55,472 nt of DNA, taken from a virus. The stretch's first letter is position 1, and each line of letters begins with the position of its first letter. This document shows positions 10,282 to 32,789 of the stretch, piece by piece. Position numbers and translations under genes: made by a program. Location of the stretch: IMG/VR virus record IMGVR_UViG_3300046535_001010, positions 1-55,472 of that record; one strand, given 5' to 3'. The notes under the pieces were generated by a model that did not search any database, was not told where the DNA came from, and was given only the letters and a program-made list of their open reading frames with translations.

Positions 10282-10595
10282 AGCAGACCATCCTAAAAAC
10301 ACCGTACTCGCGGCTCGATTTCACTCTCGATTGGACACCCTGGATCGGCGAGGATACCATCGACAGGGCTGAGTGGGCGGTGACCGGAGGTTTAGTCACG
10401 GATGGCGCAGGCGTCGACGCGACCCTCAAAAAGGCCATCATCTGGTTAAAGGGCGGCACGCTGGGCGTCAAAGACGCTACGGCTACCTGCCACATCTGGA
10501 CCGCGTTAGGCCGCGAGGACGAGCGCATCCTGTGGTTCTCCATCGTGAGCGAGATCCCTGTGAGCAGCAACCAGGGCGACTGCCAGCCGAACTAA
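10278..10595 (+). CDS. Fibre-tail adaptor-like protein
   Basis: A 105-residue protein with the pattern SRLDFTLDW, W-x-VTGGLV, V/I-WLxxG, GREDERILWFSIV. This fits the small beta-sandwich domain annotated in tailed phages as fibre-tail adaptor. A clearly homologous copy forms the N-terminus of the repeat fibre at 22330-25035 (roughly 60% identical by eye). It probably docks fibre proteins encoded just downstream. Overlaps the upstream gene by ATGA. Confidence 0.7.
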   Translation: MKQTILKTPYSRLDFTLDWTPWIGEDTIDRAEWAVTGGLVTDGAGVDATLKKAIIWLKGGTLGVKDATATCHIWTALGREDERILWFSIVSEIPVSSNQGDCQPN

Positions 10596-10607
10596 GGAAA
10601 CGAAGAC

Positions 10608-11690
10608 ATGAAGCTACTCCTCCTTTTGCTGCTTATCGGGTGGCCGGCCTTTCCAGTGACCGTGCTGCGGATGACGGCGGGGGGCAAGGGCGGGATCGAC
10701 GCGCAGGGGAATACCTGGATCGCTGACGCGAACTTCAAAGGCGGCGCCGCTTGGACGTCTGCCAACCAGGCCAACATGGCAACGCTGCCGCTCGAGTACC
10801 GGACTCTCCGCTATTCCGCTTATCCTTCCGGGGCGCCGTTTTCCTACGGCATTCCGATGGCGAACGGATCGTACACGCTGGTCTTGAAGTTTGCGGAGCC
10901 GAACAAGACGGCCGCCGGGCAGAGGATCTTCTCCGTCTCGGTCAATGGGACGATCGTCATCAATAACCTCGATTTGGTGGTCACCGCCGGGACGATGAAG
11001 CCCTATGACGTGATGATTCCCGTCACCGCGGTCAACGGCATGATCAACCTGGTCTTCACTCCGCTGACCAACACGATGAACGCAGTGGTGTCGGCGATCC
11101 AGATCGACAACGTACCGCTGAAGATCACCAAGCGAACGAGTTGCGAGATCCCGGTGAGCACGACCAGCGCCACAGTCTACAGCACATGGGGCTGCTGGAA
11201 CATGGAAGGCGTTCCCTACACGGTCCTCTCGCTGCGCTGCGCCAGCGACGCGCCTAACACGATCGTGGAGGTGATGCTGCCGGACTACGCCTCGACCGCT
11301 GTCCCTAAACCACTCAAACGGTTGGGCGAGGCGATGGTGTGCAATATGCCGCCTGAACCGGTCATTCCTACTCCGCTGTCGGGCGTGACGTATCCGGACG
11401 GCGACTTCCTGCAGATCTTCATCCGAGTGTCCGAACAGGCCGCTGGCGTGAGCACGGCAAGACAGGTGGTTGTGGTCGCGCAGATGGAGTTCGAAACAGG
11501 ACCTGCCGTCAACCCTGTGGGGCCAAGGTTGGTGGCGCTGGACACCTGCACGGGTAGCGGACCAACGTGGGACTGCGCGCAGATGCTTCGCGCGAGAGTG
11601 GCCAGGGTGGATGGCTCGCAGCTTGAGATGTTCGGAGTAACGCTGCCTATCTCGCCCACTGTGGGCCTGACCTGGACGCCGGTGAAGTAA
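10608..11690 (+). CDS. Secreted malectin-domain protein
   Basis: A 360-residue protein with a Sec signal peptide (MKLLLLLLLIGWPAFP, ~1-17). Residues ~20-170 read as a malectin-like carbohydrate-binding domain: NTWIADANFKGG, YTLVLKFAEP, GQRIFSVSVNGT, NLDLVVTAG. The rest is beta-rich with several Cys (TSCEIP, WGCWN, LRCAS, DTCTG, DCAQ), consistent with a disulfide-containing extracytoplasmic domain. It starts 13 bases after the adaptor gene, with AAGGAAACGAAG upstream of the ATG. Presence of a signal peptide in a virion operon is unusual; see findings. Confidence 0.7.
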   Translation: MKLLLLLLLIGWPAFPVTVLRMTAGGKGGIDAQGNTWIADANFKGGAAWTSANQANMATLPLEYRTLRYSAYPSGAPFSYGIPMANGSYTLVLKFAEPNKTAAGQRIFSVSVNGTIVINNLDLVVTAGTMKPYDVMIPVTAVNGMINLVFTPLTNTMNAVVSAIQIDNVPLKITKRTSCEIPVSTTSATVYSTWGCWNMEGVPYTVLSLRCASDAPNTIVEVMLPDYASTAVPKPLKRLGEAMVCNMPPEPVIPTPLSGVTYPDGDFLQIFIRVSEQAAGVSTARQVVVVAQMEFETGPAVNPVGPRLVALDTCTGSGPTWDCAQMLRARVARVDGSQLEMFGVTLPISPTVGLTWTPVK

Positions 11691-11694
11691 TCAC

Positions 11695-14184
11695 ATGCCA
11701 ATCGACAACATCAAAAATTTCGCCAAGGGCCGAGTACTAGGGAGTGCCAGCGCTCAAGCCGATAGCGTAACTTTGGTGTCTGGCGACGGCGCGCGCTTTC
11801 CGGCAGCGCCTTTCAATGCGGTTTGGTGGAACGCAAAGGCCTTCCCGGACCCGTCTGACGATCCCAGCCGCGAGATCGTGCGGGTAACGGCGATCAACGG
11901 CGACGTATTCAGTATCCTGCGTGCCCAGGAAGGCACCGCCGCGACCGCCAAGGACTCGCCTGGAGCGTCCTACAGGCTGATCGCCGGCCTGACCACCAAG
12001 ACGGTCTACGACCTGGTGGCAGAAGGATCGTCCGGGACATCAGGTTCGTCTGGAACATCAGGCATAGGCCAGTCGGGCACTTCCGGAACCAGCGGACTGG
12101 CCGGATCTTCCGGCACGTCAGGCTCCGGAACGGGCGGAAGCGGTTCGTCGGGGACTAGTGGAACGTCTGGGATAGGTCAGCCGGGCACCTCTGGCACCAG
12201 CGGCGTGTCGGGCTCCGGAACGGGTGGGAGCGGCTCGTCGGGCACGAGTGGGACTTCCGGCCTCGGATCGAGTGGTTCATCCGGCACCTCGGGCACAACC
12301 GGAACGTCTGGCACGTCGGCCTCCGGATCGGCAGGTACAAGCGGGACGTCTGGCGCGGCTGGCAGCAGTGGCGTCAACGGGACGAACGGCAGTGCGGGCA
12401 CTCACGGAAGCAATGGGACTTCCGGAGTCAACGGCACCTCGGGCGTCAACGGTACGTCAGGGACGTCCGCGACGAACGGATCCAGCGGGACCAGCGGCAA
12501 CGGCACATCGGGAACCAGCGGAGTTGGCACCTCGGGCACTAGTGGCTTAACGGGAACCTCGGGAACCAATGCCGCTGGCTTCACCTCGGGCACGAGCGGT
12601 ACCAGCGGGCAAACCGGAAGCTCGGGACAGACTGGAACCTCGGGAACTTCCGGGACTAACGCGGCAGGCTTCTCTTCTGGGACCTCGGGGACCTCGGGCA
12701 TCAGCGGCACGAGCGGCACCTCTGGCATTAATGGGACTTCGGGCATCAACGGAACGAGCGGCGTCAACGGCACATCGGGCACTTCCGGCATCAATGGAAC
12801 GTCAGGGGTCAACGGGACCAGTGGCACGGCTGGAACCAGCGGAGTTGGGACCAGCGGGACTTCGGGAGTAAACGGGAGTTCGGGCACCAGCGGCATCAAC
12901 GGCACTTCAGGGGTCAATGGCACCAGCGGCACCAATGGCTCGGCGGGAACCAGCGGGGTGGGCACTAACGGCACCTCGGGCGTAAACGGCACGTCGGGCG
13001 TCAACGGCACCAGCGGGACCGCTGGAACTTCCGGCGTCGGCACCTCGGGCGTAAACGGCACGTCGGGCACGAGCGGTGTCAACGGAACCTCAGGAATCAA
13101 CGGCACGAACGGCAGCGCTGGGACGCATGGCAGTAACGGCACGAGCGGCGTTAATGGAACCTCGGGCGTCAATGGGACCTCGGGCACTTCCGGCGTTGGA
13201 TCCAGTGGCTCATCCGGCACCTCCGGGGTCGGCGGCGGGACCGGGGGGACCTCTGGAACCTCGGGAGTAACGGGCACCTCCGGGACCGCTGGAACGACAG
13301 GAACGTTATACCCATGGAAGGGGCAATGGGGGACGTCTGCCTATGTCGTCAATGACTGCGTTGGCCGTTCAGGTTCTGGCTATGTGTGCATCACACCGAA
13401 CACTGGTGGGGCACAAGATCCTGCGGTAGCTCCTACTTATTGGAGTCTGCTTGTACAAAGTGGCTCCTCGGGCACCTCTGGGGCCAGTGGCAGCTCTGGA
13501 GCAGCTGGGACAAGTGGAACGTCTGCGGCCGGCACGAACGGCACTTCGGGTACGTCGGGCATTGGAACCAACGGGACCAGCGGCGCGGCCGGGACTTCTG
13601 GAACGACGGGCACGTCCGGAGTCAATGGCACGTCTGGAGTCAATGGGACTTCTGGCGTCAATGGCACGTCTGGAACGACTGGCACGAGCGGGACGACCGG
13701 GACCTCGGGAACGACCGGCAATGGCACCAGCGGGACGGCCGGGACCTCCGGGACCTCCGCCAACGCCACTATGACGCTCAACCCGTCTCCTGGATCCGAT
13801 AACACCGTATCCGGGCTCGCTGGAGCGTTCACCTCCGCACAGGCGCAGGCGATCGGTGACGTCTGCCGCATCGACGCCGCCTCTAAGATGACGCTGGCAA
13901 AGGCTGACGCAATCGCCAACGCCTGGGGCCTGGCGATCGTGGCCGACGCATCGATCAGCAGCGGGGCTTCCGGGAATTACCTGTTCCTTGGCATGATTCG
14001 CCACGATGCCTGGAACTGGACCTTGAATACGCCGATCTACCTGTCGGCTACCGGAACGACCGGGAACACCTTGACGCAGACATCTCCGTCTGGAGCAAAC
14101 AATGTGATTCAGATTGTAGGCTGGCCCGTCACCGCGGATGTCATGATGTTCACTCCACAGCTGGTCCAGGTGGAGCACGTATAA
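11695..14184 (+). CDS. Collagen-like Gly-Thr-Ser repeat tail fibre
   Basis: An 829-residue protein without signal peptide. Residues ~1-110 are a phage-fibre N-terminal domain ([39 protein letters not shown]). Residues ~111-535 and ~590-690 are Gly-X-Y triplets dominated by GTS, GSS, GVN and GIN with almost no proline. Between them (~538-588) sits a carbohydrate-binding-like module ([26 protein letters not shown]) resembling CBM5/12. Residues ~692-829 form a C-terminal head domain ending in [10 protein letters not shown]. Such repeats form trimeric shafts in other phages. I count about 27 Asn-Gly-Thr sequons. It may be the substrate of the glycosyltransferase at 27420. Confidence 0.85.
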
Positions 14185-16695: not shown

Positions 16696-19170
16696 ATGAA
16701 ACTCACCTTAGCCCTGCTCATCTCCTGCTCCGCATTCGCAGCGATTGGGGATCACGCGCCGCCTGTTCCGGCAACCTACGTAGCCTCGCATCCTCGCCTT
16801 GGATCGCCGTCGACCACGTACCTCGATGCGATCTGGGCGGCCCGGCCTACGGCATATGGTGGAACGAATGGTGCCGCCCGCATTTGGACATCAGCAGACG
16901 CCTTCAATGGGGCCTCGCCGGCGGCTAACAAGACCGGCGCAGTAGATGCCCGATACCTCCTAATGGCTTACTTGTCGGAAGCGCGGAACAGCGGTCCGCG
17001 CGCGTCAACGTACCTCGGCAAGATCCAGACACTGGCCACCCACGTCGATTCGATGGGCACGTGGTGGGGTGGATGGACCGCGGCGCTGGCTTACGATTGG
17101 ACCTATTCCACGATAGGCGCCACGGCGCAGGGCAATTACCGCTCACGCATGTACACCATGATGACCGCGTTTGAGTCCGCGGAAACTGGATTCTCGCCCT
17201 ACAACGACCAGTTCTACATTACCGGCTCGGTTCAGACTCCACATCTGATTCTGGCCCTCGCGATCTACCCGGATGACGCGGCGACATCCAGACCCCACTG
17301 GAACTGGTCAGCGGACATGTTTCTAAACTACATGCTCCCGGTGTGGCGCCAAGTGATCGGGGGCGGCGGAGGCTGCTCCATAGGAGATTCCGATACCAAT
17401 CACGGCGGCGGCTGGCACGAGGAATGGGTCTATCAAAATAATTTGAACACTGACCTCGGCATGATCCACTGGTTCGCGCCGTATGGCCTGGCTTGGATGA
17501 ATGCAATCGGCGACAGCGCCTTCTTCACCCGGGAATGCTGGTTCAAAAATTATTCCTATTACACGATGTACATGGTGCGTCCTGACTGGAGGATGGACCT
17601 GATCGGCCAGACCGCCTTCGGGCTGCCTGATGGGGAGTTCGGGACCAGCGGGCTGCAGACCCCTGCCTCACTTTCTTTATTGGGTGAGATCTACGATGAT
17701 CCGACGATTCGGGGCTGGGCCCGCACTTTCAACCGGACGGGGACTCCGGATGGATTTGAGCCTTCCGGATGGCCTTGGTACGCGCCAGACACGAATTCTA
17801 AGAGCACCAATACAAGAAGCTCGCTTTCTAAGGTACGTAACTTTCCGGGTTGGGGAACCATCTTTTTCCGAAACGGGTGGGGAGAAGACAACGCCTTCTG
17901 CTGGCTGCGCTACGGCGATAATTTCTGGAGTCATCCAGTTCAGGACGCAGGAACGTGGGCCTGCTTTAATCGCGGGGAACTGGCCCTCCGATCCGGATCG
18001 TACCGCGTGGGGACCGGGGCCGACCACCAAAAGATCTGGCTCAACAGCGTGATCTCAGGCAACGCTCTAACGGTTACGGACAGCGCGGACACTTTCACCG
18101 AGGAGACGGTGCAGACTAACGACCCGGTGAATGGGCTGCGCGATCTCGTTCTACCGAATGAGGGAGGCCAGCGGCGTGTGGGATCCGACGTGTCGAACCT
18201 GGGCGGCGAGATGCAACAAGCCACCAACGTCCCCTTAGACCTTGCTATGTGGAATCGTAGCCACGAGCTGTATCAGGGCGGAACGCTGATCGCCTTCGTA
18301 TCAAAAACAGCTTACACGTACGCAGCAGTGGACATCACGAGAACCTACAATAACCCCTACAGCGCAGGAGCGCATACAACCAGCCGAGCACTGCGCGAAT
18401 CCAACTCGATCAACCGAACGATGCGCGTCTCGAAAGTGATCAGGCACTTATTTTTCATCCCTAGGCCGCAGGGCGTATGGGTGGTGATCTACGATCAGGT
18501 GACCTCGGTCAACACGGCGTTCACCAAAAAGAATATCGTTCACTTTGTGAATTCTCCGACCGTCTCTTCCTATTCCGGAGGTACGAAGTGGACGGCAACC
18601 AGAACCGAAACCGTCACTGGAATTTCAAACGGAACGGACTGGCCGTACCCTTTCATCTCTGGCAATCTCGGATACATCACGCATAACTCAGGCAATTTTC
18701 AGTATGTTTACGACGGGAAAACTTACGGCTGGATGACCTTGCCGGTGAGCGGGACGATCACCACGATTGGGGGATCGGGGAGCGAATTCAAAATCGGTTC
18801 GACCAACTACAACAACTGTTTGAGCACCACCTATTGCGCCTCCCCGGAAATGTCGGATGCGCTAATCGTACCGAATGCGGCGAACTGGACCAGCGGATTT
18901 GGGTCTTACCGATTTGAGCAGGCGCCGGCCTCGGCCGCTTTGGAAGATTGGTTTTTGAACCTGATGCTGTTTACCAATTCCAGCGACACCAACGTTCCGA
19001 GCACCGAGCCTGCGACAACCTTAACCAGCGGCAACTTTGTCACAGTGTTCAAGGAAAACGCCAATAAGTGCACCACGACGATTTCGTTACCTAAATACGG
19101 GTTGGGTCCGGTCATCACCAGAACCGAAACCACTGGCGGCGATTGTACGGCGTCGGGCGGCGTGATATGA
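16696..19170 (+). CDS. Secreted heparinase II/III-like polysaccharide lyase
   Basis: An 824-residue protein with signal peptide MKLTLALLISCSAFA. The N-terminal half (~60-340) is helical and Trp-rich (WWGGWTAALAYDW, GWHEEWVYQNN, GLAWMNAIGD), as in alpha/alpha-toroid lyases. Residues ~385-450 carry the heparinase II/III-like pattern: FFRNGWGEDNAFCWLRYGD, WSHPVQDAG, RGELALRSGSY, DHQ. The C-terminal half is a beta-sandwich. It would cleave acidic polysaccharide outside the cytoplasm, a depolymerase role that fits phage entry or release. The lyase call rests on motifs and architecture; substrate unknown. The next gene overlaps by ATGA. Confidence 0.65.
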   Translation: MKLTLALLISCSAFAAIGDHAPPVPATYVASHPRLGSPSTTYLDAIWAARPTAYGGTNGAARIWTSADAFNGASPAANKTGAVDARYLLMAYLSEARNSGPRASTYLGKIQTLATHVDSMGTWWGGWTAALAYDWTYSTIGATAQGNYRSRMYTMMTAFESAETGFSPYNDQFYITGSVQTPHLILALAIYPDDAATSRPHWNWSADMFLNYMLPVWRQVIGGGGGCSIGDSDTNHGGGWHEEWVYQNNLNTDLGMIHWFAPYGLAWMNAIGDSAFFTRECWFKNYSYYTMYMVRPDWRMDLIGQTAFGLPDGEFGTSGLQTPASLSLLGEIYDDPTIRGWARTFNRTGTPDGFEPSGWPWYAPDTNSKSTNTRSSLSKVRNFPGWGTIFFRNGWGEDNAFCWLRYGDNFWSHPVQDAGTWACFNRGELALRSGSYRVGTGADHQKIWLNSVISGNALTVTDSADTFTEETVQTNDPVNGLRDLVLPNEGGQRRVGSDVSNLGGEMQQATNVPLDLAMWNRSHELYQGGTLIAFVSKTAYTYAAVDITRTYNNPYSAGAHTTSRALRESNSINRTMRVSKVIRHLFFIPRPQGVWVVIYDQVTSVNTAFTKKNIVHFVNSPTVSSYSGGTKWTATRTETVTGISNGTDWPYPFISGNLGYITHNSGNFQYVYDGKTYGWMTLPVSGTITTIGGSGSEFKIGSTNYNNCLSTTYCASPEMSDALIVPNAANWTSGFGSYRFEQAPASAALEDWFLNLMLFTNSSDTNVPSTEPATTLTSGNFVTVFKENANKCTTTISLPKYGLGPVITRTETTGGDCTASGGVI

Positions 19171-22010
19171 GATCGCTGGTTGTCCTTCTCGCGGCGTTCC
19201 TGCTGGTGGCGCGCGCGGAGGACGTGATCGTCGCCAACCAGGCAGGCACGGCGATTACTCCGAATACCTGGACAACGATCACATTCGCCGGGGCCACGAT
19301 CGACGTGCCTGGGTGGGAGTTCTTACACTACGTTCCTGCCCTAAAAAAGCATTGCGTGTTGGGCAACTACCAGGAAGTCAGCGGCGAACCAAACCGCGCG
19401 TGGATCTGCTATGACGCGGCCCGAAACTTTATGACCGTTTATGACATCAGCGGCTACTGGCACTCGGAGCACTGGCCGGATGCAGGTCACCCTGTGGGCG
19501 GCTACGCTGTAGATCCGACCACCTCGATTGCGATGGGCTTGTGTTGCAATTCGGGATCTCAGGTGTCCGAAGGCAACCAACGCCGATGGACTTGGCAGTA
19601 CGACTTCATCTCCCAAGCAGGGCGCGCTAAAAAATCCAACGCCACACTGGATAACGCCATGCAAATGGGAGGGACGTTCGACCCTCTAAACAACAAGCTG
19701 GTCGTGGAAGGCGGCGATTCGGGATTCATTGGAACGTCTGAGTACGATCCTGCCGCGAACACGTGGAACGTGGGCGTTTCATGCACAGCTACCGCTTCGA
19801 ACTGCCCGACTCCAGGCGCAATTAATCCGCGTATGGCCTATCGCACAGTGGACGCCAAAACCTATTTATTTGGTGGAGCCAACGACGATTCAGTTTACGT
19901 CTATACGGCCTCGTCGCACGCCTGGGTTAAGAAGACGACAGCATCCGGCTCCAGGCCGACTACCCGGCAGGCGCAGGGGTGGGTCTACCTTCCAGCCGAC
20001 GACAAGTTTTTCCTGTACGGGGGCGCGGCGGCAGTGAGCGGCGACGGCCTGAACGACGCATGGCTCTACGATCCTGTGGCGGATATCTGGACATCGCTAT
20101 CACTCTCCAGTCCGCCCTCCGTGTCCGCGGGCGCCAATCCGTGGGATCGCGTCAGCTACGACCCGGATATGGATTTGATCGTCAACATGCGAAACACGCG
20201 CGGGATTACCACAGTCAGCGTGGTTCGCCTACGTGCCGGCGTCAATGTAGGATACCTTGGGACGCCCACCTACACTCCGACTTCAGGAGGCGTCAACCGA
20301 AACTCCGGCACATACGCTAGATCTCCCGGCATGGCCGTAAGCGGATCCACCGTATATCAGGGCTGGGCCGAGACGACCACAACCGTGGGTAACAAGTACG
20401 AGCACATTTTCGCGCGATCGGTCACGGGTGGGACGCCTACCAATCTCGGATCAACCATCACAGCGATCTCAAACAACACGTTGAATAACGATGGTGTGTC
20501 CATGGCTGTTATCGCTACCGTGCCCTGGGTGTGCTGGGAGGAAGTCGGTTCCGGCGGCGCCACGACCGTTTGGGCGAAGGGCTTTTCCGGTGGCTCATGG
20601 TCACTCGGCGGGCAGGTCGATAGCGGAATTTCGGGCGCATGCTCGATCGTCTCAGTCGGAGGCGTGCCCCATGTAGCCTACACGCTTAGAAGCGCGTCAA
20701 CCGGAGAGATCGAACTGTGGGTGAAGAAATACGTCGCCAGTTCTTGGTCAGCGGTCGGATCCAGACTCAATGTGAATTCCACAAACTCCAGAGCAGGAAC
20801 ACCATCCATAGTCAGCGATGGGACCAATCCATGTGTAGCGTGGGATGAGTATCAATCCACCTCCCTTTCGACCAGTTTGGTCTACGTGTATTGCTGGAAT
20901 GGCTCGTCGGCGTGGGTCGCAAAAGGCACCAGCGTGACCAGTGCCAGCTACGCGATGTTCCCCTCGCTGACCTACGCGGGCGCGCTGTTTGTAGGCTATA
21001 TCGACCGCTCTGCTTCAGGGCATGCCCAGCTCATCGTGAAAACATGGGGCGGGTCTTCTTGGGGAGCAGTGGGAAGCGCCCTCAACCGCGACACCAACAC
21101 GGGGTGGGCATTCCGGCCGAAACTTGCCACGGATGGCACGAACGTCTATGCCGCGTGGGTGGAGCAGAGCAACACGCAGTCGCAAGGATCGTTGGCCGGG
21201 TACAGTAGCTTCGGCCAGCGGCCCCAGGTCTACGTGTCGAAGTGGAACACGAGCAGCTGGTCCAATCTCGGAGCGAGCCTCAATGCTGATACCGCCCTCG
21301 GGTCCGCCTCCCAGCCAGTGATCGATCTGGTCTCCGGAGCTCCTGTGGTGGTTTGGGGAGAAGTGGTGGAAGGCGCGCCGCGCAATATCTATTCCGCGCA
21401 ATGGGATGGTTCGAATTGGGGCGCGCTCAGCGTTCCAACCTGCGTGATCACCACGGTCAGTTTCCCGAACGCAACATCAGGTTCATCCTATTCGCAGACT
21501 GCCACACAGTCGGGTTGCGGCTCCAGTTCATGGGCCGTAGCCTCTGGATCTTTACCCTCGTGGGCAAGCCTCAACTCGAGCACCGGCGCTATAACCGGGA
21601 CGGCCAGCGGCAGCGGAACGGCGACGTTCACGTTATCCTACGACACTGCCACTTCAGGAAGCCTGACGATCACGACAACCTCTTCCTCCATGACTATTAC
21701 AACGAGTAGTCCGCTTCCACAGGGATTGGTCAGCATCGCCTACTCGCAAACCATGGCGGCCTCCGGCGGGGCTGCTCCTTTAGTCTGGAGTGTCTCGGCG
21801 GGAAGCGTTCCTACGGGATTGTCGCTATCCAGCGGAGGGGTTCTTTCAGGGACGCCCACGACGAGCGTTGGAAGCCCATTCAGTTTTACTGCCCTTGTCA
21901 CGGACAATAATTCGATCACCGACAGTAAGGCCTTTTCGTTGACCATTGTGCCAGGTACGGTCAAATCGGGAGGAAGCTCCAAGTCCGGCGGTAATTCGAA
22001 AAAGAAGTAG
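19167..22010 (+). CDS. Secreted Kelch-like propeller protein with Ig repeats
   Basis: A 947-residue protein; ATG 19167 overlaps the preceding stop and opens a signal peptide (MRSLVVLLAAFLLVARA). Residues ~95-330 contain Kelch-type blades (KTYLFGGANDDSVYVY, KFFLYGGAAAVSGDGLNDAW, YDPVADIWTSL). Residues ~370-760 form further WTVG-type blades (for example SWSAVGSRLNV, WSNLGASLN). Then come two putative-Ig (He_PIG-like) domains (SFPNATSGSSYSQ and ISSG-like YSQTMAASGGAAPLVW). The tail is basic (GGNSKKK). No catalytic residues are obvious. Likely a surface-binding protein; the family mix recalls Acidobacteriota secreted proteins. Confidence 0.65.
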   Translation: MRSLVVLLAAFLLVARAEDVIVANQAGTAITPNTWTTITFAGATIDVPGWEFLHYVPALKKHCVLGNYQEVSGEPNRAWICYDAARNFMTVYDISGYWHSEHWPDAGHPVGGYAVDPTTSIAMGLCCNSGSQVSEGNQRRWTWQYDFISQAGRAKKSNATLDNAMQMGGTFDPLNNKLVVEGGDSGFIGTSEYDPAANTWNVGVSCTATASNCPTPGAINPRMAYRTVDAKTYLFGGANDDSVYVYTASSHAWVKKTTASGSRPTTRQAQGWVYLPADDKFFLYGGAAAVSGDGLNDAWLYDPVADIWTSLSLSSPPSVSAGANPWDRVSYDPDMDLIVNMRNTRGITTVSVVRLRAGVNVGYLGTPTYTPTSGGVNRNSGTYARSPGMAVSGSTVYQGWAETTTTVGNKYEHIFARSVTGGTPTNLGSTITAISNNTLNNDGVSMAVIATVPWVCWEEVGSGGATTVWAKGFSGGSWSLGGQVDSGISGACSIVSVGGVPHVAYTLRSASTGEIELWVKKYVASSWSAVGSRLNVNSTNSRAGTPSIVSDGTNPCVAWDEYQSTSLSTSLVYVYCWNGSSAWVAKGTSVTSASYAMFPSLTYAGALFVGYIDRSASGHAQLIVKTWGGSSWGAVGSALNRDTNTGWAFRPKLATDGTNVYAAWVEQSNTQSQGSLAGYSSFGQRPQVYVSKWNTSSWSNLGASLNADTALGSASQPVIDLVSGAPVVVWGEVVEGAPRNIYSAQWDGSNWGALSVPTCVITTVSFPNATSGSSYSQTATQSGCGSSSWAVASGSLPSWASLNSSTGAITGTASGSGTATFTLSYDTATSGSLTITTTSSSMTITTSSPLPQGLVSIAYSQTMAASGGAAPLVWSVSAGSVPTGLSLSSGGVLSGTPTTSVGSPFSFTALVTDNNSITDSKAFSLTIVPGTVKSGGSSKSGGNSKKK

Positions 22011-22012
22011 AG

Positions 22013-22333
22013 ATGATCTTTACATCCAAAGCCGACGGGAACTGGAATGCATCAGGGCAGACCACCTGGAATGAAGTTGGGACCCCAGGGGATGGCGACA
22101 CCGTCTCTATTTCTCATGCCGTGACCGTAACGGCGGATGCCACTGTCGGGACAGGCTTTGGCTTTGGTGTCACCGTCCTATCCGCTGGAACGTTGGCCAT
22201 AAATGCCGGCATTGTGTTGACCGTGAACGGCAGTGTGGACAATCAAGGCTCGATCGTCATCGGCGACGGCGGCGATTTGGTAATCAACGAACTCGCTTTC
22301 GTTAGCCCGTTACCGACCTTCTTCTTACAATGA
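22013..22333 (+). CDS. G8-like beta-helix protein
   Basis: A 106-residue protein with the pattern GNWNASGQTTWNEVGTPGDGDTV, then stacked short strands (VTVTADATVG, TLAINAGIVLTVNG, NQGSIVIGDGGDLVI). This is typical of G8-type or single-stranded beta-helix domains. No signal peptide. It starts three bases after the Kelch gene and overlaps the next gene by ATGA, so it is probably a fibre-associated module. Confidence 0.6.
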   Translation: MIFTSKADGNWNASGQTTWNEVGTPGDGDTVSISHAVTVTADATVGTGFGFGVTVLSAGTLAINAGIVLTVNGSVDNQGSIVIGDGGDLVINELAFVSPLPTFFLQ

Positions 22334-25035
22334 CGCCCATCCTGAAGACGCCGTACTCGCGGCTCGACTTCACCCTTGACTGGACGTCATGGATGGCGGC
22401 CGGCGACGCCATCGTGCAGGTGGCTTGGACAGTGACGGGCGGCCTGGTCAACGACGGTGAGGAGATCGACGCGAGCGGCAAAAAGGCAACGGTCTGGCTC
22501 ACGGCCGGAGCGTTGGGAGTGAAGGACGCTACGGCGACCTGTCATATCTGGACGGCACTCGGCCGCGAGGACGAACGTATTCTATGGTTCTCCATCGTCA
22601 GTAAGTTGCCTGTGACGGTGGTGGGCAAGGAAGGGATCTGCGGCAACGTGCTCGCCACGAGTTCCGGCGAGGGCAGTTCCGGCACCGGATCTGGCTCCAG
22701 CGGGACCTCGGGCACGAGCGGTATTGGGACGTCGGGATTAAGGGGCAGTTCCGGCACTTCAGGTTCGTCTGGCAAGTCTCTCGGGACCAGTGGCACCTCG
22801 GGGTTCACTGGAACGAGCGGCACCGCTGGAACCTCGGGCAGTTCGAGCACCTCCGGCACCTCGGGAAGCTCTGGCGTGGGGACCCACGGAACGTCGGGCA
22901 GCAGTGGGAGTTCGGGCAGCAGTGGAACGTCTGGAATCAATGGGACGTCGGGAACGGCCGGAACCAGCGGAAGCTCTGGCTCCAGTGGAACTTCGGGCAT
23001 CCACGGGACCTCGGGGACCTCTGGATCGAGCGGGACCTCGGGCAGCACAGGCGCCGGCCTCGCCCCGGGCGGTTCGTCCGGGTACATGCTGGTCAAGAAT
23101 TCCGACACCAGCTACGACACGATCTGGCAGCTTCAACCGATCGTAGTCCCGCCGCCAACGGATACGATCCTGATCGCGGGAGGCATCGTCGTTTGGGTTA
23201 CCGGGTACACCTTCTCGGTTTCGACCACGACCTACCGCATTCTGGGCACGCTTTATAATTCGGACCTGACCAGCGTCACCCTGGCCGCGCCGGATGCCAC
23301 CCTGGACCGGATCGACGTGATCGCCGTCGACGACACGGGACATGTGATCGTGGTTCAGGGCACTCTGAATGCGACGCCGGTGCGGCCCGCGGTCGATCCC
23401 GCGCATCAGCTGGCCCTGACCTTCGTCCTGGTCACACACGCGACCACCCAGCCGGTCGGTACTTCCAGCGCCCTGATTTACGATGAGGGCGTCGAGTGGA
23501 CGGCGAGTTCTTCGGGATCCGGGTGGACGCTCAACTCGACCAACAACCCCTACCAGGGGACCAAGGACGTCGAGGCTACAGCGGTGGCCAAGGGCGCCTT
23601 CGTGCAGTTCCAGGCCGGCGCGCCGGTGAATCTGGCGCTGTACGCCAACCTGGTCTTCTACATCCGCTCGAAGGCGGCGTGGGCGAACCAGCGCTACCTG
23701 ACGCTGACCTGGCAGAATGCCGGCACTCCTCTTGGGACCTCGGTCACCCTGAAGGATGGAAACTTCACGTTCAGCAGCTCGCAGACGGCGACCTATCAGC
23801 AGATCGTCATTCAGCTTTCGCAGTTCGCTCCAATCGTTGGGACCGTCAATCAACTGCGCGTCGCCGTTGGCGGCGGCGGCGGGTCAGCCACCATCGGCTT
23901 CTACCTGGACAATATCCTGCTCCAGACCGGTGTGGCGCCACCGCCTGTCTCGGGGAGTTCGGGAACCTCCGGGACTTCGGGGGCGGCCGGGACCTCGGGC
24001 ACGACCGGAAGCTCTGGAACGACTGCCATCGGAAGCTCCGGGACGTCAGGCACCTCGGCTGCCGGAAGCTCTGGTTCTGCAGGAACCAGCGGGACGTCGG
24101 GCATTGGGACGTCTGGCATTAATGGCACCTCGGGGCTGAATGGAAGCAGTGGAACCAGCGGCCTCACTGGGAGCTCAGGAACCAGCGGCCAGTCGGGCAC
24201 ATCTGGCACGTCTGGAGTTGGTAGCAGCGGCACATCCGGGATCAACGGCACGTCGGGAACCTCCGGAACGCGAGGCAGCAATGGCACGAGCGGCGTCAAC
24301 GGGACGTCCGGCATCAACGGAACCTCGGGGACATCGGGCAGTGGCACTTCCGGCGTAAGCGGTAGTTCCGGCGTAAGCGGCAGTTCGGGAACCTCCAGTG
24401 TGGGTACTTCGGGAACCTCTGGAACTTCGGGCGTAAACGGCACCTCAGGCATCAATGGGACCAGCGGACTGAATGGCTCGTCTGGCAGCAGCGGACTAAG
24501 TGGAAGTTCGGGCACTTCCGGGATTGACGGATCATCGGGCACGAGCGGCAACGGCACGAGCGGCACTTCCGGAGTCAACGGCACAAGCGGGGTCAACGGC
24601 AGTTCGGGCACCAGTGGAACGTCTGGCGGTCCGGGCACCAGTGGAACATCGGGCGGCGGGACTAGCGGAACGTCAGGGATAGGTGTAGTTCACGGCTTTG
24701 GAACGTCCTTCGACGGCGGTGGTGTCGCGTTGGCCTCTGGGCTTACTGGGTATGTCAAGGTCCCTTCAGGCGGCACGATACAAGCCTGGAGCATCCTGGT
24801 CGATACCGGGACCTGTACTATCAAGGTGTGGAAGATCGCAGCCGGCACAGCGATTCCCACGGCGTCTAACTCGATCAACACGAGCGGGGTTTCCATCAGC
24901 ACCGGCACGGCGATCCGCAGCACTACATTGACCGACTTCACGACGACAACCATTGCCAATGGAGACATTGTGGGAATTCATATTCAGGCGGTGTCGGGGG
25001 CAACACAGATCAATTTCCAGGTAGAGGTGGCGTAA
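22330..25035 (+). CDS. Adaptor-fused Gly-Thr-Ser repeat tail fibre
   Basis: A 901-residue protein. Residues ~1-100 are a second copy of the fibre-tail adaptor domain found alone at 10278-10595. Residues ~112-245 and ~538-785 are GTS/GSS/GVN triplet repeats (about ten Asn-Gly-Thr sequons). Between them is a ~290-residue beta-rich region with two parts (IDVIAVDDTGHVIVVQG; NPYQGTKDVEATAVAKGAF to FYLDNILLQ, a carbohydrate-binding jelly-roll pattern). The C-terminal ~115 residues are a strand-rich knob (TCTIKVWKIAAGTAIPT). The architecture suggests a side fibre that carries its own docking domain. Confidence 0.8.
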   Translation: MTPILKTPYSRLDFTLDWTSWMAAGDAIVQVAWTVTGGLVNDGEEIDASGKKATVWLTAGALGVKDATATCHIWTALGREDERILWFSIVSKLPVTVVGKEGICGNVLATSSGEGSSGTGSGSSGTSGTSGIGTSGLRGSSGTSGSSGKSLGTSGTSGFTGTSGTAGTSGSSSTSGTSGSSGVGTHGTSGSSGSSGSSGTSGINGTSGTAGTSGSSGSSGTSGIHGTSGTSGSSGTSGSTGAGLAPGGSSGYMLVKNSDTSYDTIWQLQPIVVPPPTDTILIAGGIVVWVTGYTFSVSTTTYRILGTLYNSDLTSVTLAAPDATLDRIDVIAVDDTGHVIVVQGTLNATPVRPAVDPAHQLALTFVLVTHATTQPVGTSSALIYDEGVEWTASSSGSGWTLNSTNNPYQGTKDVEATAVAKGAFVQFQAGAPVNLALYANLVFYIRSKAAWANQRYLTLTWQNAGTPLGTSVTLKDGNFTFSSSQTATYQQIVIQLSQFAPIVGTVNQLRVAVGGGGGSATIGFYLDNILLQTGVAPPPVSGSSGTSGTSGAAGTSGTTGSSGTTAIGSSGTSGTSAAGSSGSAGTSGTSGIGTSGINGTSGLNGSSGTSGLTGSSGTSGQSGTSGTSGVGSSGTSGINGTSGTSGTRGSNGTSGVNGTSGINGTSGTSGSGTSGVSGSSGVSGSSGTSSVGTSGTSGTSGVNGTSGINGTSGLNGSSGSSGLSGSSGTSGIDGSSGTSGNGTSGTSGVNGTSGVNGSSGTSGTSGGPGTSGTSGGGTSGTSGIGVVHGFGTSFDGGGVALASGLTGYVKVPSGGTIQAWSILVDTGTCTIKVWKIAAGTAIPTASNSINTSGVSISTGTAIRSTTLTDFTTTTIANGDIVGIHIQAVSGATQINFQVEVA

Positions 25036-27049: not shown

Positions 27050-27412
27050 ATGATTCAGACGGGCGTCAATATAACAAAGGCAGTAGCCTACGCAGTTCTC
27101 GCCCCACTGAAGGGAGTCGATGCCACAAAGGTTGTCGGCTACGCTGCACTCGCCCCTCTTCCAGGCGTCAACGTCATAAAGGCTGTCGGCTACGCTGTCC
27201 TGTGGCGGCCTGGCATCTTTGTTTCAAAGGTCAACGCGTACGCGGTACTCACACCGAAACTTGGAGTGGATGTTTCCAAGGTGAACGTCTATGCCGTGCT
27301 GATCCCTAAGCCCGGCGTGAGCGTTTCCAAGGTGAACGTGTACACGGTGCTCGGTACGGGATCGGCTAGAATTCGCTCCTATCTATTCGGTGATGGTTGG
27401 AACTACAAATAG
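27050..27412 (+). CDS. Six-repeat KxxxYAVL fibre protein
   Basis: A 120-residue protein made of six ~17-18-residue repeats with consensus GV-x-V-SK-V-x-x-YAVL-x-P-x, for example GVDVSKVNVYAVLIPKP. It ends in RIRSYLFGDGWNYK. Similar KVxxYAVL units occur in phage fibre proteins. The stop lies 7 bases before the start chosen for the glycosyltransferase gene, so they are probably one transcript. Confidence 0.65.
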   Translation: MIQTGVNITKAVAYAVLAPLKGVDATKVVGYAALAPLPGVNVIKAVGYAVLWRPGIFVSKVNAYAVLTPKLGVDVSKVNVYAVLIPKPGVSVSKVNVYTVLGTGSARIRSYLFGDGWNYK

Positions 27413-27419
27413 GTTTACA

Positions 27420-30400
27420 ATGAGCGGGATGGTACACAATCAGATCAGACTCAGCTTCTTCGATGGCGTACGCGTGGACATCGTGCCGGTTGCGGCCTCT
27501 GGTCTGCATGGCAACGCGTTGAAGCATGCCCGGGAAGCAACCTACCTCGTGCGTTTCCTGAATGCGGAGAACGATCTGCTGGTCTATTCCACCACGGTAG
27601 CCCCTGGATGCTTCGCCGCTCCGTTTCCCAAGTACTTCATCAAATGGCGGGTGATCGTCGAGGAGAACGGTGTCGTCGTATTCGACGAAACTCTCGATTT
27701 GGCAGGCAAAAAGGTCTACATCCAGTTGGACTCCAAGGCGCTGGGCGACACGATCGCCTGGTTCCCTTACGCCGAGGAGTTCCGCAAGAAGCACCAATGC
27801 GAGGTTCACGTCGGCACGTTCCACCAGGAGCTGTTCGCGTCGACCTACCCGAACCTGACCGTGCGCGGCCCGGGCGCCGCCGAGGCCGAAGGCTTCTATG
27901 CGGCCTACATCGTCGGGACGTGCGACAACGACTACAACCGGAACAAAAATAACTGGCGGCTGATCCCGCTGCAGCAGACAGCAACGGATATTCTCGGTCT
28001 TCCCATGACGGAGATCCGCGCCCGGATCGCGCGCCCGACAGATCCGGCGCCCGTGGCCGATAAGTACGTGGCCATCGCGGAGTTCTCTACCTTCGACGCC
28101 AAGGAGTGGCTGCATCCCGGCGGCTGGCAGGCGGTGCTCGAGTACCTCAAGAGCAAGGGCTACGCCATCGTGTCGGTCAGCAAGGAACAGACCCGCCTTG
28201 CCAATCTGTTCCCCCTGGGGATCATCTCCCGGAATGACCGGAGCCTGAGCGAGACGATCAACAATATCCAGCACGCCGAATTCTTCATTGGCGTCGCGTC
28301 GGGATGCTCCTGGCTGGCCTGGGCCCTGGAAGTCCCCACCGTGATCATCTCCGGGTTCACCGAGCCATACAGCGAGATGACGGACTGCTACCGCGTCATC
28401 AACAAGAGCGTCTGTACAGGCTGCTACAACGACAAGGAACTGGCCTTCGACCGCGGCAACCGAAAATGGTGCCCGCGCAACAAGAACATGGAGTGCTCAA
28501 CGTCGATCACCCCGGCGATGGTCACCAGCGCGATCGACCGGCTGCTGCGCGACAGGAGCGAGGGCAAGAAGGCCGTCACACCGTCCGGACACAACAAAGT
28601 CCTCTTCCTGCTGCCGCACTGCTCGACTGGCGGGATGCCGGAATACGCCTACCAGTGCGTCAAAGGCCTGGTAGACGCCGGCGTCGCCGTCGCGGTGGCC
28701 GAGTGGCAGGACGTCGCGCCGATGTTCGACGTGCAGAAACGGCGTATCCGGAGCATCGCGCCCGTCCATACGCTCAACGGGGATTGGCGCAACCTGCAGC
28801 GACTGATCGAGGACTTCGCTCCCGACGTGGTGCACCTGCAGGAGTTCGCCGAGACCTTCCTGCCGGACGAAGCGGCCGTGTGGCTGTTCCGGAACCACCG
28901 CCCTTACCGTCTCATCGAGACGACCCACGGGCGTGAGGTGATCCAGCCTAACAGCAAGCGCTGGCTTCCGAACGCCTTCGCTTTCGCTAACCAATACCAC
29001 GTCGAGCAGTACAATCACCTGCCGATTCCGGCGTACGTGGTCGACATCCAACTGCCTAAGCGGGTGCGGCCGGACCGCGTCGAGGCGTTGGGCAGGCTGG
29101 GACTGGATCCCGGGCGCCGGCACGTACTCAATGTCGGCCTGTTCACTCCCGGCAAGAACCAGAAGCAGATCTTCGAGATCGCGCGAAAGCTTTCGGACCT
29201 GACCTTCCATTTCGTCGGCAACCAGGCCGGCAACTTCGCCGCCTACTGGGAGCCGCTGATGGCCCAAAAGCCGGACAACTGCATCGTGTGGGGCGAGCGC
29301 AGCGACGTGGACCAGTTCTATGCGTCGATGGACCTGTTCCTGTTCACTTCGACCCTGGAGTTTAACCCGATCGTGATCAAAGAGGCGCTGTCCTGGCAGA
29401 TGCCGGTGATCATGCGCGATCTGGAGACGTATTGCGGCGCCTACGAGTTGAACCCTCTGGTGACGTTCTTCGACGACGATGACGATCTGGCCGGGCTGGT
29501 GCGAGATCTCTTGCCGACCGTAGGAAGCCAACTGGAGGAGGCTTATTGCTTCAGTACGGAGCCGCCGCAGGAGCCTGTCGAGCGTGTGGTCATCACCGAC
29601 CGCAAAGACATCGGCGGCTGGTTCGACGAGGCCAACCGCAGGGTCTTGGATGAGCTGATCAAGCGCCATAACATCAAGAGCGTAATCGAGATCGGCTCCT
29701 TCCTTGGGCAGTCGGCCGCCTGGTTTGCCGAGCGTGTTGACAAGGTTACCTGCGTCGACACCTGGTTTGAGGCTGCCGAGCGCGGCGACCGCAACAACCT
29801 GGTTGATTCGCTCAGCTACTTCGGAGTGGGCCGCGACTTCTTCGCCAAGTTCGTCGAGAACATGAAGGGCTGCGGCGCCTGGCCCAAGATCACGGTCGTG
29901 CGCGGCGATTCCCAGGAAGTCGCTCACAAGGTCGGTGAGGCTGATCTGGTCTACGTCGACGCGAACCACACCAAGGAAGGCTGCGCCGGCGACGTCAAGC
30001 TGTACCTGCCCAAGGCCCGCAAGATCATCTGCGGCGACGATTACACGGTTCGGCCTGAGTTCGGTGTGATCGAGGCGGTCAGCGAACTGCTGCCGCGCCA
30101 CAAGTTCGACGGGCCTTTCTGGTGGGACTACGCGCCACGCGTGGCGGTCGTGATCCCCAACAAGAACTACGGGAAGTGGCTGGGACGGGCGATCCGGTCC
30201 GCGCAGGTCCAGACGATTCCTCCGGTCGCCGTGATCGTGGTCGACGGCATGTCCACGGACAATTCTGAGCAGGTGGCGCGGCGGATGGGAGCCACATGGC
30301 TGGAGTATGCCACCGGGAGAATGGGCGCTGCCAAAAACATAGGCATCGATTACGCCGAAGGCGAGGCCGACTTCATCGTCACGCTGGACGCCGACGATTG

Positions 30401-30788
30401 GATCGAGCCCAGCTTCATCGAACGCTCGATCGAGCAGATGCAGGGCAAGGATATCGTAGCCACCCAGATGCGCCTGCAGAACGGGGATATCTGGATGCCG
30501 GCGCCGCCGTTCACCATTGAGCGGTTTGTCGACCGCAATCTGATCTTCACGACTTCCATGTTCCGGATGTCCTTGTGGGGCAAGCTCGGCGGCTTCTGCG
30601 AGGACCCGGAATGCTACGAGGACTGGGACTTCTGGCTGCGCGCGGTGCTTGGCGGCGCAGCGATCGGACTCGTCAACGAGCCGCTATTCAACCACATGGA
30701 GCATGACGCTTCCAGTTGCGCGACCATGACCGCGGAGATGGACAGCCTCTACCGCGAGAAGATTCGAGCAGTCGGCGCCAGGGGATAA
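27420..30788 (+). CDS. Four-domain heptosyltransferase-GT4-methyltransferase-GT2 fusion
   Basis: A 1122-residue protein from ATG 27420; an in-frame ATG at 27390 would add 10 residues inside the previous gene. Domain 1 (~1-380) resembles TibC/BAHT autotransporter heptosyltransferases: VYIQLDSKALGDTIAWFPYAEEF, ATDILGLP, and four cysteines C332-x2-C335-x15-C351-x7-C359 like the metal-binding finger of that family. Domain 2 (~390-705) is GT4-like (STGGMPEYAYQC, NVGLFTPGKNQ, VWGERSDVDQFYASMDLFLF, ALSWQMPV). Domain 3 (~740-885) is a class I methyltransferase (VIEIGSFLGQSAAWFAE, VTCVDTW, ADLVYVDANHT). Domain 4 (~905-1122) is GT2/GT-A (VAVVIPNKNYGKWL, VVDGMSTDNS, TLDADDW). It likely builds a methylated glycan on a phage protein; the Thr/Ser fibres upstream are candidates. 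Confidence 0.8.
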   Translation: MSGMVHNQIRLSFFDGVRVDIVPVAASGLHGNALKHAREATYLVRFLNAENDLLVYSTTVAPGCFAAPFPKYFIKWRVIVEENGVVVFDETLDLAGKKVYIQLDSKALGDTIAWFPYAEEFRKKHQCEVHVGTFHQELFASTYPNLTVRGPGAAEAEGFYAAYIVGTCDNDYNRNKNNWRLIPLQQTATDILGLPMTEIRARIARPTDPAPVADKYVAIAEFSTFDAKEWLHPGGWQAVLEYLKSKGYAIVSVSKEQTRLANLFPLGIISRNDRSLSETINNIQHAEFFIGVASGCSWLAWALEVPTVIISGFTEPYSEMTDCYRVINKSVCTGCYNDKELAFDRGNRKWCPRNKNMECSTSITPAMVTSAIDRLLRDRSEGKKAVTPSGHNKVLFLLPHCSTGGMPEYAYQCVKGLVDAGVAVAVAEWQDVAPMFDVQKRRIRSIAPVHTLNGDWRNLQRLIEDFAPDVVHLQEFAETFLPDEAAVWLFRNHRPYRLIETTHGREVIQPNSKRWLPNAFAFANQYHVEQYNHLPIPAYVVDIQLPKRVRPDRVEALGRLGLDPGRRHVLNVGLFTPGKNQKQIFEIARKLSDLTFHFVGNQAGNFAAYWEPLMAQKPDNCIVWGERSDVDQFYASMDLFLFTSTLEFNPIVIKEALSWQMPVIMRDLETYCGAYELNPLVTFFDDDDDLAGLVRDLLPTVGSQLEEAYCFSTEPPQEPVERVVITDRKDIGGWFDEANRRVLDELIKRHNIKSVIEIGSFLGQSAAWFAERVDKVTCVDTWFEAAERGDRNNLVDSLSYFGVGRDFFAKFVENMKGCGAWPKITVVRGDSQEVAHKVGEADLVYVDANHTKEGCAGDVKLYLPKARKIICGDDYTVRPEFGVIEAVSELLPRHKFDGPFWWDYAPRVAVVIPNKNYGKWLGRAIRSAQVQTIPPVAVIVVDGMSTDNSEQVARRMGATWLEYATGRMGAAKNIGIDYAEGEADFIVTLDADDWIEPSFIERSIEQMQGKDIVATQMRLQNGDIWMPAPPFTIERFVDRNLIFTTSMFRMSLWGKLGGFCEDPECYEDWDFWLRAVLGGAAIGLVNEPLFNHMEHDASSCATMTAEMDSLYREKIRAVGARG

Positions 30789-31055: not shown

Positions 31056-32789
31056 ATGATTTCTTACTTTGCGTCACGTTTGTCGGACAAGATCGCCAAA
31101 ACGCCCGAAGGCTACCTGATCTGTTCCGACGCGGTGATCGCCCGAACTGGGTTTCAGCGGTATCCAATCAGCGAACTTCCGCAAGACGCAGCCCGCGATT
31201 TAGGCCTGGATGTTAGCGACAAGAGCGCTATGATTGACCTATACCGGAGCCCAGAGGAGGTCTTTGATCCAGCCGCGATCGCTTCCTTTGAGGCGAAGAG
31301 CATCACCGATAACCACCCACCGGCCGCTAAGTTTGTCGACCCCAGCAATGTAAATGAATATGAAATGGGACACCTCCAGAACGTCCGTAAGGGCGCCGAA
31401 CCTCTGGATAACGGTGAGTGGCCGCTGATGGCCGACATTGTGATCAAGCGGCAGCCGCTCATCCAGAAAGTCGAAGACGAGAAGCTACGCGAGCTTTCTT
31501 GCGGCTACGATTACACTCTCGCCCGCGATGGCGACCGGTTCTTACAGACCGCCATTCGCGGCAATCATGTTGCAGTTGTACCGAAGGGCCGAGCAGGAGC
31601 CGAGGCCCGGATAAACGATTCTGCACCGGAACCTGTGTTGCCGGAACCGATCCAGAGAAGCACGCCGGAGGCGACTCCACCGGCAATCAGAAAGGAGAAA
31701 CTAGTTGTGCCTAAACCAGTGAGCATGTTGAAGCACATACTTGGGCTCGGCCTGAAAGCCTTTGCGGCTGATGCTGATCCCGAGAGTGTGGCTGACGCAG
31801 TCGAGGCGGTAACCGACAAGAAACCCGCCGAAGACAAACTCGCCGATGACCGGAGGGCTGACGACCGTCGAACTGACGACCGTCGTTCCGATGATCGTCG
31901 CGCGGATGACAGCCGTAGCGATGACCGGAGGGCAGATGATCGCCGTTCCGATGATCGCAAGGCGGATGACCGGGCCGATGACCGGGCGAACGATAAGGTC
32001 ACGAACCGGTATGCCGGGAAGAACCCCACCGGCAAGGACAGCGCGACCGACAAGGTGTCTAACCGGTATGCCGGGAAGAATCCCACCGGGAAAGACGCCG
32101 CCGCCGACGCCAACGACAGCGCCGACGATAGCGCTGACGCGCAGGCCGATGATTATCGCGCCAGGATGCACGCTGCCCTGGACGAGATGATCGAACGCGC
32201 TGCAGCCCGGGGCGGAGGCGGCGAAGAAGAGCCGGCACCTGTGGGAGGCGGCGGCGCACCGGCTCCTGTTGCGGGAGGCGCGCCTGAGACGCCGCTGCCT
32301 GCCGAGGATGTGGACCTGGAAGAGCTGGCCAGCTTACTCCAGGAATACTTCGAGGAAGAAGCGGCCGAGCCGGAACATGAAGGTGGCGGCGAGCCCCTGC
32401 CCGAGGGCGAAGGTGAACCCTTGCCCGAAGAAGAGCCTGCTCCTGCCCGGGCCGCCGACGGAAAGTCCCGTGCTCGCGACGGGTTCATCGAACCGGTGCC
32501 GATCAACGCCAGCGCCGCCGGCAACAACGATGACGACCTGATGGCCCTGCGACCTTTCGTTGCACGGTCTAACGACGCCGCGCTCAAGCGTGCGTTTAAC
32601 AGCCGTTTGGCGCGACGTACCCGTTCCGCGGGCGCGTCCAACGGCAGCTACGCCGGATTCGTCACAGCCTCGCGCACGCGAGCGGCGGATGTCGCCGAAC
32701 CCGGCAATGGTGCTAGCGACAGAGATCGCAAGCTCCAGGCAGCCTACGATGCACAGCGGAGCGGAAAACCCCTTCAGGAGGTGAAGTAA
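31056..32789 (+). CDS. DUF2213-type prohead protease with scaffold domain
   Basis: A 577-residue protein with GGAG before ATG 31056. Residues ~1-200 fit DUF2213-type head proteins (EEVFDPAAIASFEAK, SITDNHPPAAKFVD, LRELSCGYDY, IRGNHVAVVPKGRAGAEARI), with H85 (DNHPP) and S157 (ELSCGY) as possible catalytic residues. The rest is scaffold-like: charged DDRR repeats (~265-315), a double NRYAGKNPTGKD repeat, a helix RARMHAALDEMIE like that of three upstream proteins, and acidic Gly/Pro/Glu-rich tail. A strong internal start (GTG 31707) would yield the scaffold alone. It precedes cement and capsid genes, as expected. Confidence 0.8.
   Translation: MISYFASRLSDKIAKTPEGYLICSDAVIARTGFQRYPISELPQDAARDLGLDVSDKSAMIDLYRSPEEVFDPAAIASFEAKSITDNHPPAAKFVDPSNVNEYEMGHLQNVRKGAEPLDNGEWPLMADIVIKRQPLIQKVEDEKLRELSCGYDYTLARDGDRFLQTAIRGNHVAVVPKGRAGAEARINDSAPEPVLPEPIQRSTPEATPPAIRKEKLVVPKPVSMLKHILGLGLKAFAADADPESVADAVEAVTDKKPAEDKLADDRRADDRRTDDRRSDDRRADDSRSDDRRADDRRSDDRKADDRADDRANDKVTNRYAGKNPTGKDSATDKVSNRYAGKNPTGKDAAADANDSADDSADAQADDYRARMHAALDEMIERAAARGGGGEEEPAPVGGGGAPAPVAGGAPETPLPAEDVDLEELASLLQEYFEEEAAEPEHEGGGEPLPEGEGEPLPEEEPAPARAADGKSRARDGFIEPVPINASAAGNNDDDLMALRPFVARSNDAALKRAFNSRLARRTRSAGASNGSYAGFVTASRTRAADVAEPGNGASDRDRKLQAAYDAQRSGKPLQEVK
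31707..32789 (+). CDS. Predicted nested scaffold protein (internal start)
   Basis: In-frame GTG 31707 lies 9 bases after a near-perfect Shine-Dalgarno AAAGGAG (31691-31697), inside the protease gene and exactly where the protease-like domain ends. It would give a 360-residue protein beginning VPKPVSML, followed by the charged repeats and acidic tail. Nested scaffolds inside protease genes are known in other tailed phages (for example lambda C/Nu3). This one is predicted, not shown. Confidence 0.55.
   Translation: MPKPVSMLKHILGLGLKAFAADADPESVADAVEAVTDKKPAEDKLADDRRADDRRTDDRRSDDRRADDSRSDDRRADDRRSDDRKADDRADDRANDKVTNRYAGKNPTGKDSATDKVSNRYAGKNPTGKDAAADANDSADDSADAQADDYRARMHAALDEMIERAAARGGGGEEEPAPVGGGGAPAPVAGGAPETPLPAEDVDLEELASLLQEYFEEEAAEPEHEGGGEPLPEGEGEPLPEEEPAPARAADGKSRARDGFIEPVPINASAAGNNDDDLMALRPFVARSNDAALKRAFNSRLARRTRSAGASNGSYAGFVTASRTRAADVAEPGNGASDRDRKLQAAYDAQRSGKPLQEVK

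Follow-up and report, generated by a model that had tools for sequence, protein, structure and literature searches.

Why should a phage encode, among the genes for its virion, one polypeptide that combines three glycosyltransferases with a methyltransferase, and what would such an enzyme modify? The question is raised by an IMG/VR virus contig (IMGVR_UViG_3300046535_001010), analysed here over its whole length of 55,472 nt (the window). Its genes include those for a terminase, portal, head protease, major head protein, tail sheath and tape measure, all on the + strand, a set that marks the virus as a contractile-tailed phage. Among named phages, the head protein and the portal have distant relatives only. 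The head maturation protease (31056-32789) carries an inserted run of Asp-Asp-Arg-Arg-type repeats.

Domains of the fusion and their recurrence

The reading frame of the fusion (Table 1) begins with ATG, with alternative starts at GTG 27390 and ATG 27429, and contains no internal stop. It follows directly on a pair of 333-aa proteins and a 120-aa protein; the latter (27050-27412) is composed of repeats of ~17 aa (GVDVSKVNVYAVL-like) and has no family match.

Table 1. Positions of the fusion, its domains and the candidate acceptor proteins (window coordinates, except for the bacterial loci in the last row).
Feature	Position	Strand	Evidence
BAHT-GT4-methyltransferase-GT2 fusion, 1122 aa	27420-30788	+	Profiles, TibC sequence match, predicted structure, recurrence
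Domain 1, TibC/BAHT-like glycosyltransferase (clade 2), aa 1-378	27420-28553	+	TIGR04414 282 bits; 4rap phmmer; tree
Iron-finger motif C332-x2-C335-x15-C351-x7-C359	28413-28496	+	Alignment with TibC
Domain 2, GT4 (GT-B fold), E-x7-E motif, aa 391-735	28590-29624	+	PF00534; VIA-align
Domain 3, class-I SAM methyltransferase (Methyltransf_24), aa 736-903	29625-30128	+	PF13578; motif I
Domain 4, GT2 (GT-A fold), aa 904-1122	30129-30785	+	PF00535; VIA-align; DxSxD, DxD and ED motifs
Fibre A, 829 aa, collagen-like (Gly-Thr-Ser/Asn)n, almost proline-free, candidate acceptor	11695-14184	+	PF01391 3.7e-41
Fibre B, 901 aa, Gp77-like N-terminus, two (Gly-Thr-Ser)n stalk segments, candidate acceptor	22330-25035	+	PF01391 1.3e-30; PF23148
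Bacterial secreted or lipoprotein-like (GTS/GSS)n proteins beside clade-2 BAHT	L222 11148-11849; L214 8957-9928; L212 7724-8404 and 8503-8931

The first domain is matched by the TIGR04414 profile (hepto_Aah_TibC) over aa 39-374, at 5.6e-84 and 282.2 bits against a curated cut-off of 200, and by the sequence of the TibC crystal structure, 4rap (phmmer 6.8e-59). Its Cys332, 335, 351 and 359 align with the iron-finger Cys339, 342, 358 and 370 of TibC, and D110, T224, K228 and W298 with the catalytic Asp110, Thr226, Lys230 and Trp305. In the same alignment, Arg286, which contacts the adenine in TibC, is replaced by Thr. The GT4 domain exceeds the Pfam cut-off for PF00534 (2.8e-11, aa 560-698) and contains its E-x7-E motif at aa 647-655 (E647, E655), while the match of its N-terminal half to PF13439 (aa 404-516) is sub-threshold. 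The methyltransferase (PF13578 at 5e-11 and 43.9 bits, cut-off 26.3, aa 756-868) includes the SAM motif I EIGSFLGQS at aa 757-765 together with VDANH, and the GT2 domain (PF00535 at 4.7e-19, aa 910-1023, above the Pfam cut-off) has DGMSTD at 942-947, DAD at 990-992 and ED at 1067-1068. As read from these alignments and motifs, the catalytic motifs are intact in all four domains.

The AlphaFold model of the fusion has a mean pLDDT of 76.5 and a pTM of 0.41, and the relative arrangement of the domains is not readable from it. Compared separately, aa 1-385 superimpose on TibC (Z 32.6, 351 residues, rmsd 2.8), aa 391-704 on GT-B enzymes of the GT4 family (VIA-align Z 20-22) and aa 905-1122 on GT-A enzymes of the GT2 family (VIA-align Z ~24). 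The 50 matches listed for the whole model include no methyltransferase, in a kind of search that the other domains dominate. The initial annotation had read from motifs a single polypeptide with four enzyme domains, set in a phage virion operon, the first domain being of the TibC type with a four-Cys finger. All of this is borne out: profiles place the four domains, structural matches are found for the three glycosyltransferases, the positions of the Cys residues are exact, and neither fewer than three enzyme folds nor a loss of catalytic residues was seen.

Scans with a single sequence as query returned no relatives, and a profile was needed. One built from four phage BAHT domains identified 413 stretches of IMG/VR that encode such a domain; the analysis took in the closest 80 of the 413, to which the percentages given below refer. 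A diverged phage contig (IMGVR 3300047509, L005) encodes the same BAHT-GT4-MT-GT2 order in 1180 aa, ~55% identical over the aligned length. In six further contigs (L006-L009, L123 and L125) the protein continues beyond BAHT-GT4-GT2, ending in L006 with an FkbM methyltransferase. Other orders are GT4-MT-BAHT (L010, L016, L022, L025 and L047), MT-GT4-BAHT (L011), GT4-MT-BAHT-MT-GT2 (L021, 1625 aa), GT2-BAHT-GT4 (L134, 1649 aa) and GT4-BAHT-FkbM (L057). The combination, which the initial annotation did not know from any described phage virion operon, is one of many BAHT-centred fusions in phages, in which the partner modules are reshuffled around a constant TibC-like domain, and the occurrence of the same order in L005, together with the related fusions on further contigs, rules out an artefact of assembly or frameshift.

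At other loci the BAHT stands alone (~400 aa), and in some phages the GT4 is a separate ORF adjoining it; the GT4 domain of the window shares 40% identity with one such ORF, beside the BAHT of a 735-kb megaphage. Enzymes that are fused in some genomes and encoded side by side in others usually work one after the other, and by this reasoning we infer that the GT4, the BAHT and the domains joined to them do so.

Collagen-like fibres and their pairing with the enzyme

Two fibre genes in the window encode Gly-X-Y repeats that exceed the Pfam cut-off of PF01391 (Table 1), and fibre B lies on the same strand as the fusion, 2.4 kb upstream; in the interval between them, terminator- and promoter-like sites are not above the number expected by chance. 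Fibre A comprises 139 triplets, with mostly Thr at X and mostly Ser at Y. Across the BAHT loci (5004 triplets), X is Thr in 56% and Ser in 25%, Y is Ser in 63% and Asn in 20%, and proline accounts for ~0.5%. Rods with so little proline would have to draw their stability from elsewhere. The 75 GTS units of fibre A are written in 39 different nine-base codings and use both serine codon families, which rules out low-complexity DNA as their origin and indicates that it is the protein sequence that is maintained. N-x-S/T sequons, mostly Asn-Gly-Thr/Ser, number 34 in fibre A and 17 in fibre B.

A protein with a carbohydrate-binding Malectin domain (10608-11690, 1.2e-19) is encoded immediately ahead of fibre A. 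A gene located between those of fibres A and B specifies a 955-aa protein with Kelch and putative Ig domains and a signal-peptide-like start (19143-22010). An 824-aa protein with a signal-peptide-like N-terminus (16696-19170) distantly resembles the heparin lyase HepB (3e-13, sub-threshold for the family) and is possibly a phage polysaccharide lyase.

The association between enzyme and fibre extends to other viruses and is seen from both directions. After clustering at 90% identity, and with fetched flanks of up to 10 kb, a (GTS)n ORF is found beside 27 of 49 viral BAHT loci, against 1 among 46 clusters formed from phage loci with a GT2 but no BAHT (Fisher p 2.5e-9), the controls being matched by type and rough length rather than by phage taxonomy and related phages not being fully independent. 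Restricting the comparison to loci of at least 15 kb gives 18/27 against 1/28. In the reverse test, contigs with GTSGTSGTS, picked by a protein pattern of 12 letters, contain a BAHT in 19 of 29 cases (18 of the 19 over the family cut-off), compared with 0 of 20 contigs with GATGATGAT, that is (GAT)3 (p 1e-6). Several BAHT and (GTS)n ORFs are only 4-30 bp apart, and pairs of this kind turn up on many branches of the BAHT-domain tree. The isolated Microcystis phage Mel-JY01 encodes a GT4-BAHT fusion, with genes for GTS-rich fibres in the vicinity. The ~45% of viral BAHT loci that have no (GTS)n ORF include many incomplete ones, and a fibre gene can be separated from the enzyme by more than 10 kb. 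Relatives of the tail sheath, used as another control, gave 0/35; this control was set aside as weak, because in the window the sheath gene itself is more than 10 kb from the fibre genes. The coupling of BAHT to (GTS)n is well supported.

Bacterial pairs, two clades and the sugar donor

The BAHT profile also matches bacterial genomes, and there the pairing recurs. In Methylomicrobium sp. RS1 (L222, BAHT at 9779-11038), in Methylococcaceae (L214, L235) and in Acidiferrobacterales (L212), the neighbouring gene encodes a small (GTS/GSS)n protein with a signal-peptide-like or lipobox-like start, and no phage genes are present in the stretches read of L222, L214 and L212. All six gammaproteobacterial genomes with a clade-2 BAHT (see below) have a collagen-profile (GTS/GSS)n ORF within ~2 kb of the single BAHT that exceeds the curated cut-off; two of them (G032 and G034) contain no collagen matches besides these ORFs. 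Collagen-profile matches are far more numerous in one Methylococcaceae genome (G036), which has one full BAHT.

A tree of 88 BAHT domains, from a short search without bootstrap, separates TibC and the sequences of Negativicutes and Paraburkholderia (clade 1) from all viral and these gammaproteobacterial sequences (clade 2) with an SH-aLRT of 100. The autotransporter target repeat, TIGR04415, is present in 5 of 9 clade-1 genomes and in none of 25 clade-2 genomes or records (p 5e-4). Since it is absent from the window and from the 24 other members of this set, the first domain of the fusion is described here as a BAHT homologue from a clade of its own, and not as an autotransporter heptosyltransferase. 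We believe clade 2 to be a previously unrecognised BAHT clade.

TibC adds heptose to Ser residues of autotransporter repeats, for which it needs Asp110, Lys230, Trp305, Arg286 and the iron finger (PMC4358343). In the numbering of TibC, phage-type domains retain D110, W305 and all four Cys in 53/53 and K230 in 50/53, while position 286 is Arg in only 23/53. As Arg286 reads the adenine and is Thr in the fusion, the nucleotide of the donor, and hence the sugar, may differ from ADP-heptose. The analogy with autotransporter O-heptosyltransferases drawn in the initial annotation consequently stands for the type of domain, while the use of ADP-heptose is uncertain. Heptose synthesis encoded by the phages themselves was considered as support for this donor, and almost none was found: among 31 phage records with BAHT, rfaE domain II and a GmhA-type SIS_2 domain each occur in one. 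The rfaE domain II (ADP-heptose synthesis) is above the family cut-off and lies at 13632-14054 of its record (L054, G023).

Proposed role and comparison with known systems

The fusion is quite probably a multienzyme for virion glycosylation that acts on the phage's own (GTS)n fibres. Its clade-2 TibC-like domain would attach the first sugar to Ser or Thr of the (Gly-Thr-Ser)n repeats, the fused GT4 and GT2 would then presumably add further sugars, and the methyltransferase would cap the glycan, presumably by O-methylation of a sugar. The long and almost proline-free stalk would in this way become densely glycosylated before or during virion assembly, and the glycan could serve to stabilise it, to shield it from proteases or antibodies, or to bind a receptor. 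Of the earlier proposal, virion glycosylation stays probable, with the (Gly-Thr-Ser)n fibres as the likely acceptors in place of an autotransporter-type repeat, TIGR04415 being absent from the window.

Glycosyltransferases encoded beside tail-fibre genes have been assigned another task in pelagimyophages, whose authors propose that they modify the host surface (PMC7029224). Applied to the fusion, this would mean a change of O-antigen or capsule in infection, for example excluding other phages. GT4 and GT2 enzymes are indeed typical of polysaccharide synthesis, but TibC belongs to a type of protein O-glycosyltransferases, and no membrane-anchoring or flippase-like partner was found among the window proteins scanned. 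As such a role also predicts neither the two-way association with (GTS)n nor the two-gene pairs of bacteria, we consider it unlikely. The same two observations bear on the idea that another virion protein (the capsid, the tube or the 333-aa neighbours) is glycosylated and the fibres are bystanders. The position of the fusion, which comes next after these neighbours and the repeat protein of 120 aa, would suit it, and the capsid and tail-tube subunits of mycobacteriophages are glycosylated (Freeman 2023, as cited in PMC12619734); yet it leaves unexplained both the enrichment of (GTS)n neighbours and the bacterial BAHT/(GTS)n pairs that have no phage structural gene nearby, and must be rated rather improbable. 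Glycosylation of phage DNA bases, for which glycosyltransferases of DNA-hypermodifying phages offer a precedent (cited in PMC12619734), is barely credible for a fusion that has no base-modification domain, lies in a structural operon with fibre neighbours and begins with a domain of a protein-modifying family.

Glycosylation of the (GTS)n fibres, if it takes place, opens a broader and more doubtful possibility. Proline-free (Gly-Thr/Ser-Ser/Asn)n proteins might represent a new kind of collagen in which dense glycans, instead of proline or hydroxyproline, hold or stiffen the rod, with the distinct TibC branch as its glycosylation system. It would occur in many phages, as fibres, and in gammaproteobacteria such as methanotrophs, as secreted proteins, and phages would have packaged the system into single polypeptides that make a complete, methyl-capped glycan. 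The proposal of fibre glycosylation as a whole suggests a route to stability for proline-free collagen-like rods. It offers an acceptor for a BAHT branch that databases label as autotransporter heptosyltransferase, and ties a common, unexplained type of phage fibre to the enzyme that probably modifies it. One-polypeptide glycan builders could be of use in glycoprotein work, glycosylated fibres are relevant to how stable phages are and how the immune system recognises them, and the idea is directly testable, since in methanotroph genomes enzyme and substrate are neighbouring small genes.

BAHT homology in phages is not new as such, because automated annotation in databases already gives the name Aah/TibC to some phage proteins, among them an uncultured phage protein with a predicted structure. 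The (GTS)n partner and the clade are what we believe to be new. The openly licensed literature yielded nothing relevant that links phages with TibC, BAHT or strand-loop-strand heptosyltransferases, or heptosyltransferases with collagen-like proteins. Of the described systems, TibC/Aah (BAHT, TIGR04414; eLife 2014, PMC4358343) shares with the first domain its similarity over the whole length, the catalytic residues and the four iron-finger Cys. The fusion differs in its separate clade, in the replacement of Arg286 by Thr, in the absence of TIGR04415, in the (Gly-Thr-Ser)n collagen-like protein as partner and in the fused GT4, methyltransferase and GT2. TibC is a dodecamer; the fusion is characterised here by its sequence and predicted structure.

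Mycobacteriophages also decorate virion proteins with glycans, which, as far as the citing paper allows comparison, are located at the C-termini of capsid and tail-tube proteins (Freeman 2023, via PMC12619734), whereas here collagen-like fibres and an initiating enzyme of the TibC type would be involved. The BclA-type collagens of Bacillus and C. difficile are likewise glycosylated Gly-X-Y proteins, in which glycosylation is thought to help through hydration; bacterial collagens are rich in proline at X (19-31%) and carry Thr at Y (PMC8968730), in contrast to the ~0.5% proline, Thr/Ser at X and Ser/Asn at Y found here. Mimivirus, a virus of amoebae, provides a parallel in that its genome encodes both a collagen and a fused enzyme for glycosylating this collagen; the enzyme is a bifunctional lysyl hydroxylase/glycosyltransferase (as cited in PMC8968730), of other enzyme classes than those joined in the fusion of the window.
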